Source of the DNA: a virus
Length of the DNA: 31,769 nucleotides
Strand: one strand, 5' to 3'
IMG/VR virus record: IMGVR_UViG_3300036804_000343
Span: 1-31,769 of that record
A program made the position numbers and the translations under genes. Below the pieces are notes generated by a model. That model was not told the origin of the DNA, made no database searches, and was given only the letters and a program-made list of their open reading frames with translations. Numbering within the stretch: position 1 is the first letter of the stretch; each line of letters opens with the position of its first letter. Below are positions 6,194 to 31,769 of this stretch, one piece after another.

Positions 6194-8479
6194 TTAATAC
6201 CCTATCGCCATATATCTGATCAGTTGCGCGTTGGCAAAACCCTCGCCGTTGTTTGAGTCAAGGTTGATAGTTCCACCCGACGCATTCAGCCCCAAAATGG
6301 CGGGTACTGCGACATAGCCATTTGAATTGACACCGCTTGTGCCTGGCGTAGCGACAACAGACAACAGGACATTGGGGAAGGTCGTCGGGAAAGAAAAGGA
6401 GGCTGTTGCCGTTCGCTTGCCCGATGCCGGTACCGTCACCGTTCCCCACTGCGTAATCAGTCCCGTCGTCCCGTCTTTAGACCAGCCATTCGCCAGACGC
6501 GACGCGGTGTTTTTTAAGTTATAGCGGGCATCAGATTCAGTTTTCGTGTAAGCGCCGGTTTTTGCCATATATGCGGCATCTGACTGCGCCTTAAGGTAAT
6601 AGCGGTTATCAAAGTTCGAATAGTTACCTGGGGTAATAGTGCCCGTGCAACTGATGGTGCCGTCCGAAGAAACGGGGATCCCTGTCCCAAAACTTACCGC
6701 CCCTGTCTCGAGATTAACTCTTATAGGGCGAAGGTCGTTATAGCTGCCGTAAGCGTCCCCTGCCTTAGTAAGCATAAGATAAAGATTGGTACTATCCTGT
6801 CGCCAGAACGAACCATAGTCCCCCTGAACAATTCGATAGGCGTTTGCGTTTGTTGACTGAAACTCTGCTGAATTTCGCACAATGCCACTTACCGCAGTGC
6901 TGCCAGTAATAGGGATTGCCTCCACGTCTGAGGCGGTCGGTTTATGCTTTGCATCATAGACCGGCACCCAGTCCCCCCACACACCTCCGGTTTTTAACCG
7001 ATAGAACATCTGAGCGTTCAGTACGCCCGCAGGCCAGCCGATTTGTTTTGCCGAATTTTTATCATATTGGATATGAATAATTTCACCTGCGGTATTCCCC
7101 TGCGGGCCATGAACGCCTGCGCTGCTGACAGCGTAAAACCCGTCTTTACTGATGGTATTGGCATCCGCAACCACCTGGGCATCCTCCCCAACCCCGAACG
7201 CACCGACCTGCATAACATTGCCGGGTTCTGTGCCTACATTTTTTGTGGCCGCAGTTCCTAGGCCACCAATATTTCCCGCAGAAAGGGCAATGTCGGACGT
7301 TCCGTCAAAGGCGACACCGGCAATTTTTCGCGCCGTGGCGAGTTTGGTTGCAGCAACCGCCGTGCCGCCCGCAGGCAGTGCGCCCACGTTCGCGGGCGGA
7401 ATGCTGATATCCGCCGTGCCATCAAACGCCACACCGGCAATTTTACGTGCCGTAGCCAGTTTAGTGGCCGCCGCTGCCGTGCCGCCCGCTGGTAACGCGC
7501 CCACATCTGCGGGGGATAACGTAATATCCGCAAAGAGAGGTTTGTCATTAATTTTGCGGGTTTTCGGTACACCGTTGAGCGTATCCAGTGCCGCAACCGG
7601 ATCCGCAACATCAGACAGGTTTTTATCTCTGCGCAAATACAGGCTGCTGCCTTTCGGGCGCAAATCGGTGATCACGCCGTTGACGTCGATGCTGGCCAGC
7701 GCAAACACGTAATGATTGATGCCGCTTTGGGCATAGTTGGCCAGCGTGGTGGCAAGCGTAAATTTAATGTCCGTCTGGTAGGCGCTGGTCAACGTGCCGT
7801 GATAGCTCACATCCGCCCACACCTTCACCGGCTTAGTGGTCACGGTGATATTGGCATTTGCTGCCAGAGCCGCACGCAGCCCGCCAACGTAACCCGCGCC
7901 TGCGGTCACAAAATATTGCGTCCCGGTTTTGTTCACCAAAAACCCGGTATCAAAGAAGGCTCCGGCGCCGTAAATATCCAGATTGGCCAGGCGCAGCGCC
8001 TCATCCATTCCGGCAAGGCGGGCGGTAAAATCAATCTGCCAGGTTTCGGCGGGCGTGCTGATTAGCGTCTGCGCTTCCGCGCCGTTGTACTCCATCAGGA
8101 AAGAACGGGTTAACACGTTGCCCTGCTGACCGTTCGCGTTTTTAACTTTGCTCTGTAACGGCGCATGAACCACCATTGCCAGCTTGCCGGTGGCCTTGTT
8201 AGTCAGACCAATCCAGTTAAACGAAAAATCGCCTACGTCCGCGCCCAACGTCACCGAATACACCACGGCGTTTTCATTCACCAGCCCGGTTTTTTCCACC
8301 GCCTGACGGTAAACAATCTGCGCCGCGGCTGGCATCCCGGCCGAGCGGTCAATCGGTGCGTTAACATCGAGGTTTGGCACATTGGCAAACACAAATTCAT
8401 CCAGGACAACCGCCTGGCCATTGGCGGCTTGCTGGGCTTTCCATTGCTCAAAGGCTTCTGTAATGACTGTCTGTGACAT
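6194..8479 (-). CDS. Tail fibre, receptor-binding protein
   Basis: A 761-residue side tail fibre. Residues ~1-160 resemble the phage tail-collar fibre domain (P2 H N-terminus), which attaches to the baseplate. Residues 322-399 hold two 39-residue repeats containing GALPAGGTA and TARKIAGVAFDGT. The C-terminal ~130 residues contain KTESDARYNLKN and LITQWGTVTVPA and end in MAIGY, as in knob domains of enterobacterial fibres; this end should decide host range. The start has AAGGA upstream. No inverted fibre segment or invertase gene is seen, so there is no sign of host-range switching by DNA inversion. Confidence 0.9.
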   Translation of the reverse strand: MSQTVITEAFEQWKAQQAANGQAVVLDEFVFANVPNLDVNAPIDRSAGMPAAAQIVYRQAVEKTGLVNENAVVYSVTLGADVGDFSFNWIGLTNKATGKLAMVVHAPLQSKVKNANGQQGNVLTRSFLMEYNGAEAQTLISTPAETWQIDFTARLAGMDEALRLANLDIYGAGAFFDTGFLVNKTGTQYFVTAGAGYVGGLRAALAANANITVTTKPVKVWADVSYHGTLTSAYQTDIKFTLATTLANYAQSGINHYVFALASIDVNGVITDLRPKGSSLYLRRDKNLSDVADPVAALDTLNGVPKTRKINDKPLFADITLSPADVGALPAGGTAAAATKLATARKIAGVAFDGTADISIPPANVGALPAGGTAVAATKLATARKIAGVAFDGTSDIALSAGNIGGLGTAATKNVGTEPGNVMQVGAFGVGEDAQVVADANTISKDGFYAVSSAGVHGPQGNTAGEIIHIQYDKNSAKQIGWPAGVLNAQMFYRLKTGGVWGDWVPVYDAKHKPTASDVEAIPITGSTAVSGIVRNSAEFQSTNANAYRIVQGDYGSFWRQDSTNLYLMLTKAGDAYGSYNDLRPIRVNLETGAVSFGTGIPVSSDGTISCTGTITPGNYSNFDNRYYLKAQSDAAYMAKTGAYTKTESDARYNLKNTASRLANGWSKDGTTGLITQWGTVTVPASGKRTATASFSFPTTFPNVLLSVVATPGTSGVNSNGYVAVPAILGLNASGGTINLDSNNGEGFANAQLIRYMAIGY
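7283..7516 (-). repeat. Two tandem 117-bp repeats in the tail fibre gene
   Basis: Two adjacent copies encode 39-residue units (residues 322-360 and 361-399) that differ at few positions; both contain VGALPAGGTA and KIAGVAFDGT. Such fibre repeats can change in number by recombination and alter fibre length. Confidence 0.85.
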
Positions 8480-28242: not shown

Positions 28243-28382
28243 AAGGCAAACTCCTGTCTTGATAGGATACGGCAATATCCGTCAATAATCGTTAATAACT
28301 ACAAAACGGAGCTAGGTTAACTCGCTAAAAACTACAAATCAATATTTTTGTAGCTTTTTGAGTGGTTATCCTTCGTGAAATC
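28243..28382. promoter_or_regulatory. Immunity switch region with CI operator candidates
   Basis: This gap holds the divergent lytic and lysogenic promoters. A repeated half-site CTACAAA occurs three times: 28299-28305 and 28332-28338 on the + strand, and 28347-28353 inverted (TTTGTAG). The last two form an inverted repeat extended by A-runs and T-runs (28327-28359). A possible lytic promoter on the - strand is TTAACC-N17-TATTAA, whose spacer contains the first half-site. The half-sites are likely CI or Cox operators; which protein binds is not decided by the sequence. Confidence 0.55.
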
Positions 28383-28964
28383 ATGTCTAAATTTATCTTC
28401 AACTTTGACGGCGAGAGCGCCCCAGTATTGGATCGCGTTTTAGATGCCTATGGCTTTAGTTCCAAAATTTTACTGGCTGAGCATCTTGGTATTGCTTCGA
28501 GCAGTTTGGCGGGACGTTACAAACGCGGTGGATTTCCTGCAGATATCGTAGTGCGGTGCGTTGCCGAGACAGGTGCAAATCTTGAGTGGCTTGCTACTGG
28601 ACATGGCAAGAAATTTGAAGACAGCGAATTGGACATCATGCGATTCCCTCGCAAAAAGCTAATAGAAGGCCAGCTGTATGAGTCAGGCTATTTACTGTTC
28701 GATAAAGTTTTGTTCCTTCCTGGTACTCAGATACCAGAAGATCCAATCTGCGTAATTGATGGTTCAACACAATTCATCGTCGAGCAAAAATTCCCTGAGA
28801 TTTATGATGGTGAGTGGTTGGTAGATATCGAAGGAAAGGTAAGCATCAGAACACTGACAAGAGTCCCAGTGAAACGAGTTCGGGTTAGTGGCGTCGGCAT
28901 GGCTTTTGATTGCAATCTGGACGACATAACAGTGTTCGGCCGCGTTGTTATGACGTGTAAATAA
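28383..28964 (+). CDS. cI: CI repressor, 186 type
   Basis: A 193-residue repressor (186 CI has 192). The N-terminal domain VLDRVLDAYGFSSKILLAE then HLGIASSSLAGRYKRGG is a close relative of the 186 CI helix-turn-helix, and ETGANLEWLATGHG follows as in that family. The C-terminal domain is the oligomerisation domain; no Ala-Gly cleavage site or Ser-Lys pair of LexA/lambda CI type is seen. Inactivation should therefore need an antirepressor. I start it at ATG 28383 by comparison with 186; the ribosome site is poor, which might mean weak translation. int follows after two bases. Confidence 0.9.
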   Translation: MSKFIFNFDGESAPVLDRVLDAYGFSSKILLAEHLGIASSSLAGRYKRGGFPADIVVRCVAETGANLEWLATGHGKKFEDSELDIMRFPRKKLIEGQLYESGYLLFDKVLFLPGTQIPEDPICVIDGSTQFIVEQKFPEIYDGEWLVDIEGKVSIRTLTRVPVKRVRVSGVGMAFDCNLDDITVFGRVVMTCK

Positions 28965-28966
28965 TC

Positions 28967-29995
28967 ATGCCCGTAAGAAAACTTGAAAACGGCCAATGGG
29001 AAGCCGATTTTTATACTGAGAACCGCAGTGCCGGGAAACGCGGTAAACGTGTTCGCAAGAAATTCAGCACCAAAGGCGAGGCTCTGACTTTCGAGCGTTA
29101 CACCTTAGAGAAAGCGCAAAGCACTCCTTGGAATGGCGAAAAGAAAGAAACAAGACGCTTAAAGGATATTGCCAAACTTTGGTATGACCAACATGGCATT
29201 ACTTTGAAAGACGGGCAGAGACGGCTTGAAACAATGGAGTGGGCAGCAGAATGCATGGGTCAACCCCTTGCTACTGAATTTAATGCTCAACTATTTTCTG
29301 CCTATAGGTCAAAGCGTTTATCGGGGGAGTACTCCAGAACCAATCGCATTTCTCAGATCACTCCCCGCACCATAAACTTAGAACTTGCCTATTTTCGAGC
29401 TGCATTTAATGAGCTTCGCCGCTTGGGAGAATGGCAACTCTCAAACCCTTTGGAAAATGTGAGAGCATTTCGTACTGAAGAAAATGAAATGGCTTTCTTA
29501 AACCACGAACAAATTAGTGACCTGCTGCGAGAATGTAAAAATAGCAGTGCTAAAGACTTGGAAATTATTGTAAAGATTTGCTTATCAACAGGCGCTAGGT
29601 GGAGCGAAGCGGAAAGTTTAACTAAGTCACAAATATCAAATAATAGAATTACATTCACTAAAACAAAAAGCAAAAAAAACAGAACAATCCCTATTACAAA
29701 AACCTTAGCAGAATCCCTACCCACTAATAAAAAAGGTCCTCTTTTCGAACCTTGCTATTACGCTTTTCGTTCGGCTTTAAGCCGCACAGATATTCTTCTT
29801 CCAGACGGGCAATTATCTCATGTATTGCGTCATACTTTCGCCAGTCACTTTATGATGAATGGGGGCAACATCCTAGTTTTACAAAGAATTCTTGGTCACG
29901 CAGATATTAAAATGACAATGCGATATTCACATTTCGCTCCTGATCATCTTGAAGATGTTCTTCATTTCAATCCTTTAAATAACCCAAAGAGCTAA
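28967..29995 (+). CDS. int: Tyrosine integrase, HP1/186 type
   Basis: A 342-residue phage integrase. The N-terminal arm-binding domain covers ~1-55 and the core-binding domain ~60-160. The catalytic residues are Arg211 (STGARWSEAE), His285 and Arg288 (HVLRHTFASH), His311 (LGHADIKMT) and nucleophile Tyr320 (RYSHFAPDH); their spacing follows HP1 integrase. It integrates and, with the Cox-like protein, excises the prophage. It is co-transcribed with cI. In P2-like phages attP lies near the 3' end of int; here another gene begins one base after the stop, so attP must be further on. Confidence 0.95.
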   Translation: MPVRKLENGQWEADFYTENRSAGKRGKRVRKKFSTKGEALTFERYTLEKAQSTPWNGEKKETRRLKDIAKLWYDQHGITLKDGQRRLETMEWAAECMGQPLATEFNAQLFSAYRSKRLSGEYSRTNRISQITPRTINLELAYFRAAFNELRRLGEWQLSNPLENVRAFRTEENEMAFLNHEQISDLLRECKNSSAKDLEIIVKICLSTGARWSEAESLTKSQISNNRITFTKTKSKKNRTIPITKTLAESLPTNKKGPLFEPCYYAFRSALSRTDILLPDGQLSHVLRHTFASHFMMNGGNILVLQRILGHADIKMTMRYSHFAPDHLEDVLHFNPLNNPKS

Positions 29996-29996
29996 A

Positions 29997-31769
29997 ATGG
30001 ATAATATTACTCAGTTCAAGGAATATATCAATTTCTATAAAAATCAAAAAAATCCAGGCTACGCAGTTTTAGTGACCGGAGAGTGGGGTTCGGGTAAAAC
30101 TTATCAAATAAAGAATACACTGAATGCCGATGAGTATTATTATATTAGCCTTTTTGATTTAACTTCAGTAGAGGACATATACGCTTCTGTTTTTTATAAA
30201 ATGTCGCCAATAAAGGCCTTTACCAAAGGTGCTGCTGAAGGTTTAAGCGATTCGAGCTTAGCAATAGATACTGCAACATTTGGCTTAGGGAAATTGATTG
30301 GTAAGATAGCAAATGCAGTAATAAAAGAAGATGTGAAAAATGATCGAGTTATTGTTTTTGATGATATAGAGAGATGCGCCGTTCCAATCAATGCAATACT
30401 AGGAGTGATTAATAAGTATATTGAGCATCATAATTGCAATGTCATTGCAATTGCTCATGATGAAAAGATAAAAGACACGTTCGATGAATCCAAAGAAAAA
30501 GTAATAGGCCAAACATTAAAAATAGAGCCTAATATAAACGAAATTTTCGATTATTTTATAGCAGCAGATACGTCAATCGAAATCCATGAGTCAATAAAAA
30601 ACGCAATATTAAGTACTTTTATTGCATCCAACTGCAGATCAATGCGTATTTTAAAACATACTTTAAAAGATAATTCCCGTTTATTTGAATGCATCGAAAC
30701 AAAATATATAAACAACGAAGTTGCAATGTGCGAGATATTTACTTTCTTTACAGCGCTATCCATAGCGTATAGATATGGAAAATTAAAAGAAAGTGATATG
30801 CTTTCAAGGTCTGCAACATCAATAAAATACTATATCAATAAAAACAAGGAAGGGGCAGTAATTCCAGCAATAGTTCAATTAAATGAAATTTATAAAAAAA
30901 ATGGGATTTTAATAGATTTAAGTCGCAACATCCTTCAAGATGAAACAATTATCAATTGTTTCGTTAAAGGTCATTATGATAAAAATGAGATATCTAAGGA
31001 TATAGAGGCAAATGAAAAATTTAACCCAGGAAAAACCGAGCCTTGGCTAAATTTAATTAATTTTGACAGACACACAGCGGATGAAGTTAGAGACGCAATA
31101 TGTGAAATTGACAAGCAACTAAATGCACTCTCCGTAGTTGAGGAGGGTAAGATATTACATATATTTAACTTAAAACTTTTAATGGTTAAAATAGGTGTCT
31201 ACCCGTTGAATTATGATGATATTTATAAAGAATTTTGCAGATATTTGAATAAACTATTACTAAATGATCTTGTCGGTCCATATGACCCTGATAGCCGGTT
31301 CTCAAACTTCAGAGACTCGTCATTTGGTCACGGGTACTGGATAGAAAAAGAATATCAAAAAATCTCAAAAAAAATGTTTTCCTTCGCTGAACATATAAAG
31401 AAAAAAGCACAGCAAAAAAAATTCCCTCAGTATAAAGATGAAATAATTACCGCTTTAAAAAATACCCCCTTAGAATTTAAGAAACTAGTCTCATCTGGAT
31501 ATGTTGGTGAGGGGAAGTATGCTTACATTGAAATAATGAAATATATCAAACCTCAAGATTTCGTTGAAGCATGGTTAAACTGTCATATTAGCCATTGGCA
31601 ATCTATTTGTGAGGGATTAGATGCCAGATATGCGACAGGTATGTTACACAATCAGCTATCTGGCGAAAGGAAATGGATACGTAGGGTAAATTATCTGCTA
31701 ATGCACCGTGCTAAAAAATATTCAGGATTTGATCGTTTGAGAATTGAAAGGCTGCGCATCCGCTACTAG
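29997..31769 (+). CDS. KAP family P-loop NTPase, candidate conversion/defence gene
   Basis: A 590-residue protein of the KAP P-loop type. Walker A is GEWGSGKT (28-35), Walker B is VIVFDDIER (118-126), and a sensor-like IAIAHDEKI follows at ~150-160. Then comes GQTLKIEPNINEIFDYF, common in the soluble KAP branch. Residues ~200-590 form a helical domain without a known motif. I see no clear membrane insertion in the NTPase domain, unlike many KAP proteins. The gene is much more AT-rich than the phage core, and its ATG stands one base after the int stop, with no promoter space, so it should be expressed with cI and int in the lysogen. KAP NTPases occur in several anti-phage systems (for example QatA), so a role in excluding other phages is plausible. 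The reading frame ends with TAG at the window edge. Confidence 0.8.
   Translation: MDNITQFKEYINFYKNQKNPGYAVLVTGEWGSGKTYQIKNTLNADEYYYISLFDLTSVEDIYASVFYKMSPIKAFTKGAAEGLSDSSLAIDTATFGLGKLIGKIANAVIKEDVKNDRVIVFDDIERCAVPINAILGVINKYIEHHNCNVIAIAHDEKIKDTFDESKEKVIGQTLKIEPNINEIFDYFIAADTSIEIHESIKNAILSTFIASNCRSMRILKHTLKDNSRLFECIETKYINNEVAMCEIFTFFTALSIAYRYGKLKESDMLSRSATSIKYYINKNKEGAVIPAIVQLNEIYKKNGILIDLSRNILQDETIINCFVKGHYDKNEISKDIEANEKFNPGKTEPWLNLINFDRHTADEVRDAICEIDKQLNALSVVEEGKILHIFNLKLLMVKIGVYPLNYDDIYKEFCRYLNKLLLNDLVGPYDPDSRFSNFRDSSFGHGYWIEKEYQKISKKMFSFAEHIKKKAQQKKFPQYKDEIITALKNTPLEFKKLVSSGYVGEGKYAYIEIMKYIKPQDFVEAWLNCHISHWQSICEGLDARYATGMLHNQLSGERKWIRRVNYLLMHRAKKYSGFDRLRIERLRIRY

Follow-up and report, generated by a model that had tools for sequence, protein, structure and literature searches.

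KAP-family P-loop NTPases include PifA, which acts alone against phages, and many members of the family, though not all, have transmembrane segments within the NTPase domain. Tmn likewise acts alone against phages and carries two transmembrane segments (PMC11846954), and QatA, the KAP component of qatABCD, is DNA-binding and forms 7-8-mers (PMC13279940). Here we describe a KAP-type P-loop NTPase gene of 590 codons at the right end of a P2/ESSI-2-like prophage, the 31,769-nucleotide IMG/VR record IMGVR_UViG_3300036804_000343, which was analyzed whole and is referred to below as the window. With a probability of about 0.6, we regard it as an accessory (moron) gene of the phage whose product, made in lysogeny, provides single-gene defence against phages.

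P2-like prophages are known to carry variable defence cargo. In the passages drawn on here, one hotspot is placed between gpA and gpQ (PMC9122126, Rousset 2022) and a second at the locus containing fun (PMC9519451), while a cI-int slot is named for K139-like phages (PMC9122126). A relative of the window protein in a P2 phage (L144; comparison loci are given as L numbers) lies within the first of these, between the portal gene (gpQ) and gpA. The slot filled in the window is a different one, which by comparison with relatives extends from int to attP and is not named in those passages of PMC9122126 and PMC9519451. A defence gene is already known to ride on a repressor transcript in Staphylococcus aureus phage 80alpha, where Tha belongs to the cI transcript and is expressed in lysogeny but shut off upon induction (PMC11087260); Tha differs in being an unrelated HEPN protein, and no counterpart of its antisense inhibitor ith was identified in the window.

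Position of the KAP gene relative to the attachment site

The gene occupies 29997..31769 on the + strand and runs from ATG to TAG without an internal stop. It follows int (28967..29995, + strand), which encodes a 342-residue P2-type tyrosine integrase recognized by profile matches, and int in turn follows the gene for a cI-like repressor (28362..28964, + strand), the first of the presumed lysogenic operon. The gaps are 2 nt between cI and int and 1 nt between int and the KAP gene, the int stop TAA standing at 29993-29995. A complete NTPase frame opening one base past int, on the strand of cI and int, was what the original prediction had claimed, and the coordinates bear this out. The repressor frame opens at GTG (28362), but an ATG at 28383 is the likelier start. 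A possible ribosome-binding site for the KAP gene, AAAGAG, was read by eye within the 3' end of int (29986..29991, + strand).

The last base of the record is the end of the KAP stop codon, and the record appears to have been trimmed at gene ends, so that the window end is apparently a product of this trimming and not an att site. Neither att repeats nor tRNA genes were found within the window. Megablast of the window led to Cronobacter phage ESSI-2 and the Escherichia ESSI2_ev phages (Peduoviridae); matches to phage records were weak and partial, and no DNA match to E. coli genomes was obtained.

The boundary of the prophage was therefore drawn from relatives. A prophage of Ewingella americana E4 (L002) matches the window colinearly as far as the KAP stop, at 72.8% nucleotide identity, and a 67-bp exact direct repeat (attL/attR) stands at both of its ends, the right copy about 0.1 kb past the KAP stop. 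This repeat is the 3' end of a tRNA(CAU) gene, called tRNA-Met by ARAGORN and possibly tRNA-Ile2. The att repeat also lies beyond the KAP gene in four further integrated relatives, with the tRNA core 139-155 nt past the KAP stop (L122, L125, L134, and L143). In relatives that lack cargo (L010, L016, and L026), int runs directly into the integrase arm repeat TGTCGCAAAAGTGTCGC along with the att core, the latter 107 nt past the int stop; L002 and L041 have this arm repeat after the KAP gene and not after int. Because the att arm follows int in cargo-free relatives and the KAP gene in carriers, the comparison indicates that the KAP gene is phage cargo, an insertion within the phage that separates the int stop from the attP arm. 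The alternative of a host gene beside the prophage, with att between int and the KAP gene, had been feared when the gene was proposed as prophage cargo; it is ruled out by the att sites beyond the KAP gene in relatives.

A second integrase remnant and an AbiU/AIPR gene lie between two att copies in the Ewingella sequence L092 (2371-5052; Ewingella C36 about 82370-85052); the segment represents the decayed remains of a further element, in tandem at the tRNA site used by the prophage.

Contents and probable transcription of the int-attP slot

The slot was surveyed in 80 relatives fetched by int, together with ESSI-2, ev040, and Ewingella. An open reading frame (ORF) of at least 100 codons follows int in 45 loci, although such an ORF is not always cargo, as surveyed loci can extend past att; in 20 of the 45, a same-strand ORF starts between -30 and +25 nt from the int stop. 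KAP proteins occupy the slot at 71% (L002), 58% (L018), and 36-39% (L035, L022, L041, and L019) identity to the window protein, and at 31% as the second gene of L066. A profile search of IMG/VR adds L119 (62%), L121 (55%), L125, L126, L134, and others, so that the search for homologues beside int in P2-like prophages, suggested with the original prediction, places the gene in the slot of several lineages. In L122 (6697-8462), the KAP relative in the int slot is present as two ORFs (199 and 376 aa) with an apparent frame break.

Other occupants match AbiU (3e-91, in Ewingella beside the second int remnant), ShosA of Shosta (5e-157, with a partner), Abi_C/AbiJ, putAbiC/AbiP, the FRG protein PDC-S15, and TIR, PIN, and DzbB-like proteins, and several slot proteins match no defence model or known family. 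The locus thus has the feature of a hotspot, variable cargo at one fixed prophage site with known defence genes in several slots. Judged from an int tree, slot contents do not track int ancestry, since the KAP label changes 7 times against a mean of 7.2 for shuffled labels; int is nearly identical in L016, where the slot is empty, and L017, where it is filled. The L017 slot protein has no Pfam or PADLOC match and belongs to a family (251-269 aa) whose members show N-terminal hydrophobic stretches and whose genes lie flush with int, directly after it, in L017, L023, L032, and L033; these are further defence candidates from the slot.

Away from the slot, besides the portal-gpA position in L144, a KAP relative adjoins tail genes S and R in L149. 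In Pseudomonas-type prophages (L003, L004, and about 8 similarly laid-out IMG/VR records) the relative is a lone reversed gene; in the Pseudomonas sp. Irchel s3b2 prophage (L003), its neighbours are lysozyme-type lysis genes on one side and the gene for antiterminator Q on the other. Chromosomal relatives at 25-30% identity adjoin SIR2-HerA, Septu PtuAB, an FRG PDC-S15 protein, and a PD-T4-6-like kinase, neighbours that were picked by eye without a background rate. Relatives of at least 30% identity were found mostly in phages and not at fixed host loci, contrary to the fear that homologues would prove to belong to a non-mobile host setting.

These distributions bear on what the gene does for its carrier. 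An ATPase resembling TnsC or MuB that worked with the adjacent integrase in integration or excision would explain why the KAP gene adjoins int, and TnsC and MuB are among the best structural matches to the N-terminal part of the protein. However, closely related integrases that share the att arm are followed by unrelated cargo or by none, and family members also occur apart from this P2-type int, beside portal, tail, and lysis genes; such a helper role is very improbable and was rejected on these grounds. The protein might otherwise act narrowly, in superinfection exclusion or against satellites, its targets being related P2-like phages or P4-like satellites that rival the prophage for its tRNA att site or for helper functions. 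This would accord with the carriage of the KAP gene by a single phage group that uses a single tRNA(CAU) site, a site that hosts tandem elements, such as the second int remnant and AbiU between two further att copies in Ewingella. The presence of the family in unrelated Pseudomonas-type prophages and in chromosomal defence loci (25-30% identity) suggests a broader target, and we consider narrow action unlikely. Phages also carry many non-defence morons in variable slots, and the slot proteins that lack a defence match would suit a stress or signalling NTPase that contributes to host fitness without a role in defence; set against the repeated pairing of the family with defence genes and hotspots in several unrelated contexts, this is distinctly unlikely.

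With respect to transcription, pattern matching detected no promoter-like or terminator-like match on the + strand at the int-KAP junction. Because this junction lacks such signals and the gaps measure only 2 and 1 nt, cI, int, and the KAP gene are probably co-transcribed from the repressor promoter. In Ewingella, a 10-pair + strand terminator is matched just past the att copy that follows the KAP gene.

The KAP protein and its predicted structure

The reading frame far exceeds chance expectation, as the longest stop-free run in 500 composition-shuffled versions of 29997-31769 averaged 81 codons and reached at most 160. Its GC content of 0.328 (0.288 at third codon positions) compares with 0.535 for the phage core, in agreement with the AT-richness originally reported. 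Since the window and Ewingella copies are saturated at synonymous sites (dS), identity by codon position was used instead; at 0.78, 0.86, and 0.49 for positions 1, 2, and 3, changes fall mostly at third positions, and the protein is therefore under purifying selection. Two small antisense ORFs within the gene (30194-30391 and 30551-30763) are likely due to chance.

The profile and motif features of KAP P-loop NTPases are present. The Pfam KAP_NTPase profile (PF07693) scores 31.1 bits against a gathering cut-off of 20, and the Walker A motif GEWGSGKT (residues 28-35, with K34; 30078..30101, + strand) and KAP-type Walker B motif FDDIER (residues 121-126; 30357..30374, + strand) are where they had been predicted. 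In an alignment of 28 family members, G28, W30, G31, G33, K34, T35, D122, D123, E125, and R126 are invariant. The protein also matches phrog_4740 in PHROGs, to which no function is assigned, and a search of the PDB by sequence gave no meaningful match.

The closest catalogued likeness is to PDC-S49, a candidate family of PADLOC. Residues 5-586 align to positions 7-604 of the 624 in this model (E 3.6e-122), and the likeness extends to the single-gene format and the same KAP N-terminal module; PDC-S49 is itself a candidate by association, and membership is no proof of function. With regard to qatABCD, the gene is preceded by int, no qatBCD partners were seen alongside it in the record, which ends at the KAP stop, and what follows it in Ewingella is an att copy and an integrase remnant. 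The QatA profile did not match the protein at E<=1 in the PADLOC search, a result that is not conclusive. Unlike Tmn, and contrary to what is common among KAP NTPases, none of the 28 aligned members has a strongly hydrophobic 19-residue segment, the maximum hydropathy of such segments being 1.46 in the window protein and 1.67 across the alignment, and neither a membrane-like segment nor a nuclease domain was recognized in the window protein.

An AlphaFold2 model built from the 28 family members (mean pLDDT 84) has an N-terminal NTPase module with a predicted AAA+/ORC/TnsC-like fold (residues 1-260; 29997..30776, + strand). The module matches AAA+, ORC, TnsC, and MuB chains, with a VIA Z of up to 14.2 over 218 residues, and heptameric RdrA at Z 11.3. 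It is followed by a C-terminal domain (residues 262-590; 30780..31766, + strand) that is all helical, with a pLDDT of 87 when modelled alone. Against the PDB, the best Foldseek E for this domain was 0.84 and the best VIA Z 6.5 over 96 residues, values that unrelated helical folds are expected to reach; such weak matching is no proof of a new fold. The profile and structure searches proposed for the C-terminal part thus returned a helical domain with no convincing known match. That this part lacks a name, as the original prediction stated, holds, but its size is nearer 330 than 390 residues, the NTPase module reaching to about residue 260, a boundary taken from the range matched by the best structural hits. 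Conserved W350, R544, E557, W448, and W560 may form a binding surface on the modelled domain.

Elsewhere in the window, a 335-aa AT-rich ORF at 672-1679 has hydrophobic N-terminal stretches and matches phrog_17460, of unknown function; it is left-end phage cargo, because L150 has a 91% relative joined to the same baseplate end, although similarity to L150 begins only at 566. Upstream of it, a 196-aa AT-rich ORF (1-591) also has hydrophobic N-terminal stretches and has no family match. At the left end of the Ewingella prophage, a reverse-transcriptase ORF (RVT_1, 1.7e-18) occupies 11488-12246 of L090. In the tail region of the window, two 117-nt direct repeats, 74% alike, lie at 7290-7523 within a 761-aa ORF (6194-8479).

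Proposed role and significance

The full-length match to PDC-S49 and the known or candidate defence genes that share the slot support a single-gene defence, and the original interpretation is likely right in kind. Several points weigh against it. PDC families are candidates by association only, and the PADLOC matches of some neighbours (kinase and TIR) are to broad families; a literature search found no protection assay for this protein or for PDC-S49, and no PMC paper naming the family. The window itself lacks an att site, its boundary being taken from relatives, and the operon is read from gene packing and junction sequence. The AAA+/ORC-like fold that the model shares with its structural matches is no proof of function or oligomerization.

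As the comparison with relatives shows, the KAP gene travels with the phage in the int-attP slot and stays behind cI and int after integration. On the defence reading, a transcript from the repressor promoter would end at the tRNA terminator beyond attR. The lysogen would thereby keep the gene on, and induction would turn it down. On the pattern of other KAP and AAA+ ATPases of defence systems, the N-terminal module would bind ATP and assemble into a ring or filament, and the conserved helical domain would sense the invading phage through one of its products or states; this step of sensing and assembly is the weakest of the proposal, and we hold it as possible but rather doubtful. The activated assembly would then block infection or halt cell growth. 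Because no nuclease domain was recognized and no membrane-like segment found, the executor may be the assembly itself or a host partner.

What was already known here is the candidate family; what is new is the int-attP slot, as far as the cited passages of the two P2 hotspot papers go. We tentatively suggest, at somewhat less than even odds, that P2/ESSI-2-like phages reserve the stretch from the end of int to the attP arm as a cargo dock, in which genes are exchanged precisely, open no more than about 30 nt from the int stop, ride on the repressor transcript, and are closed off by the host tRNA terminator at attR, and that PDC-S49 acts as a soluble immune sensor of the KAP type whose helical sensing domain has not previously been described. 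A catalogued candidate family is now placed in a mobile, exchangeable slot alongside known defence genes, which gives strong grounds for an assay, and inspection of the interval from the int stop to the attP arm in P2-like prophages provides a search rule for more candidates.
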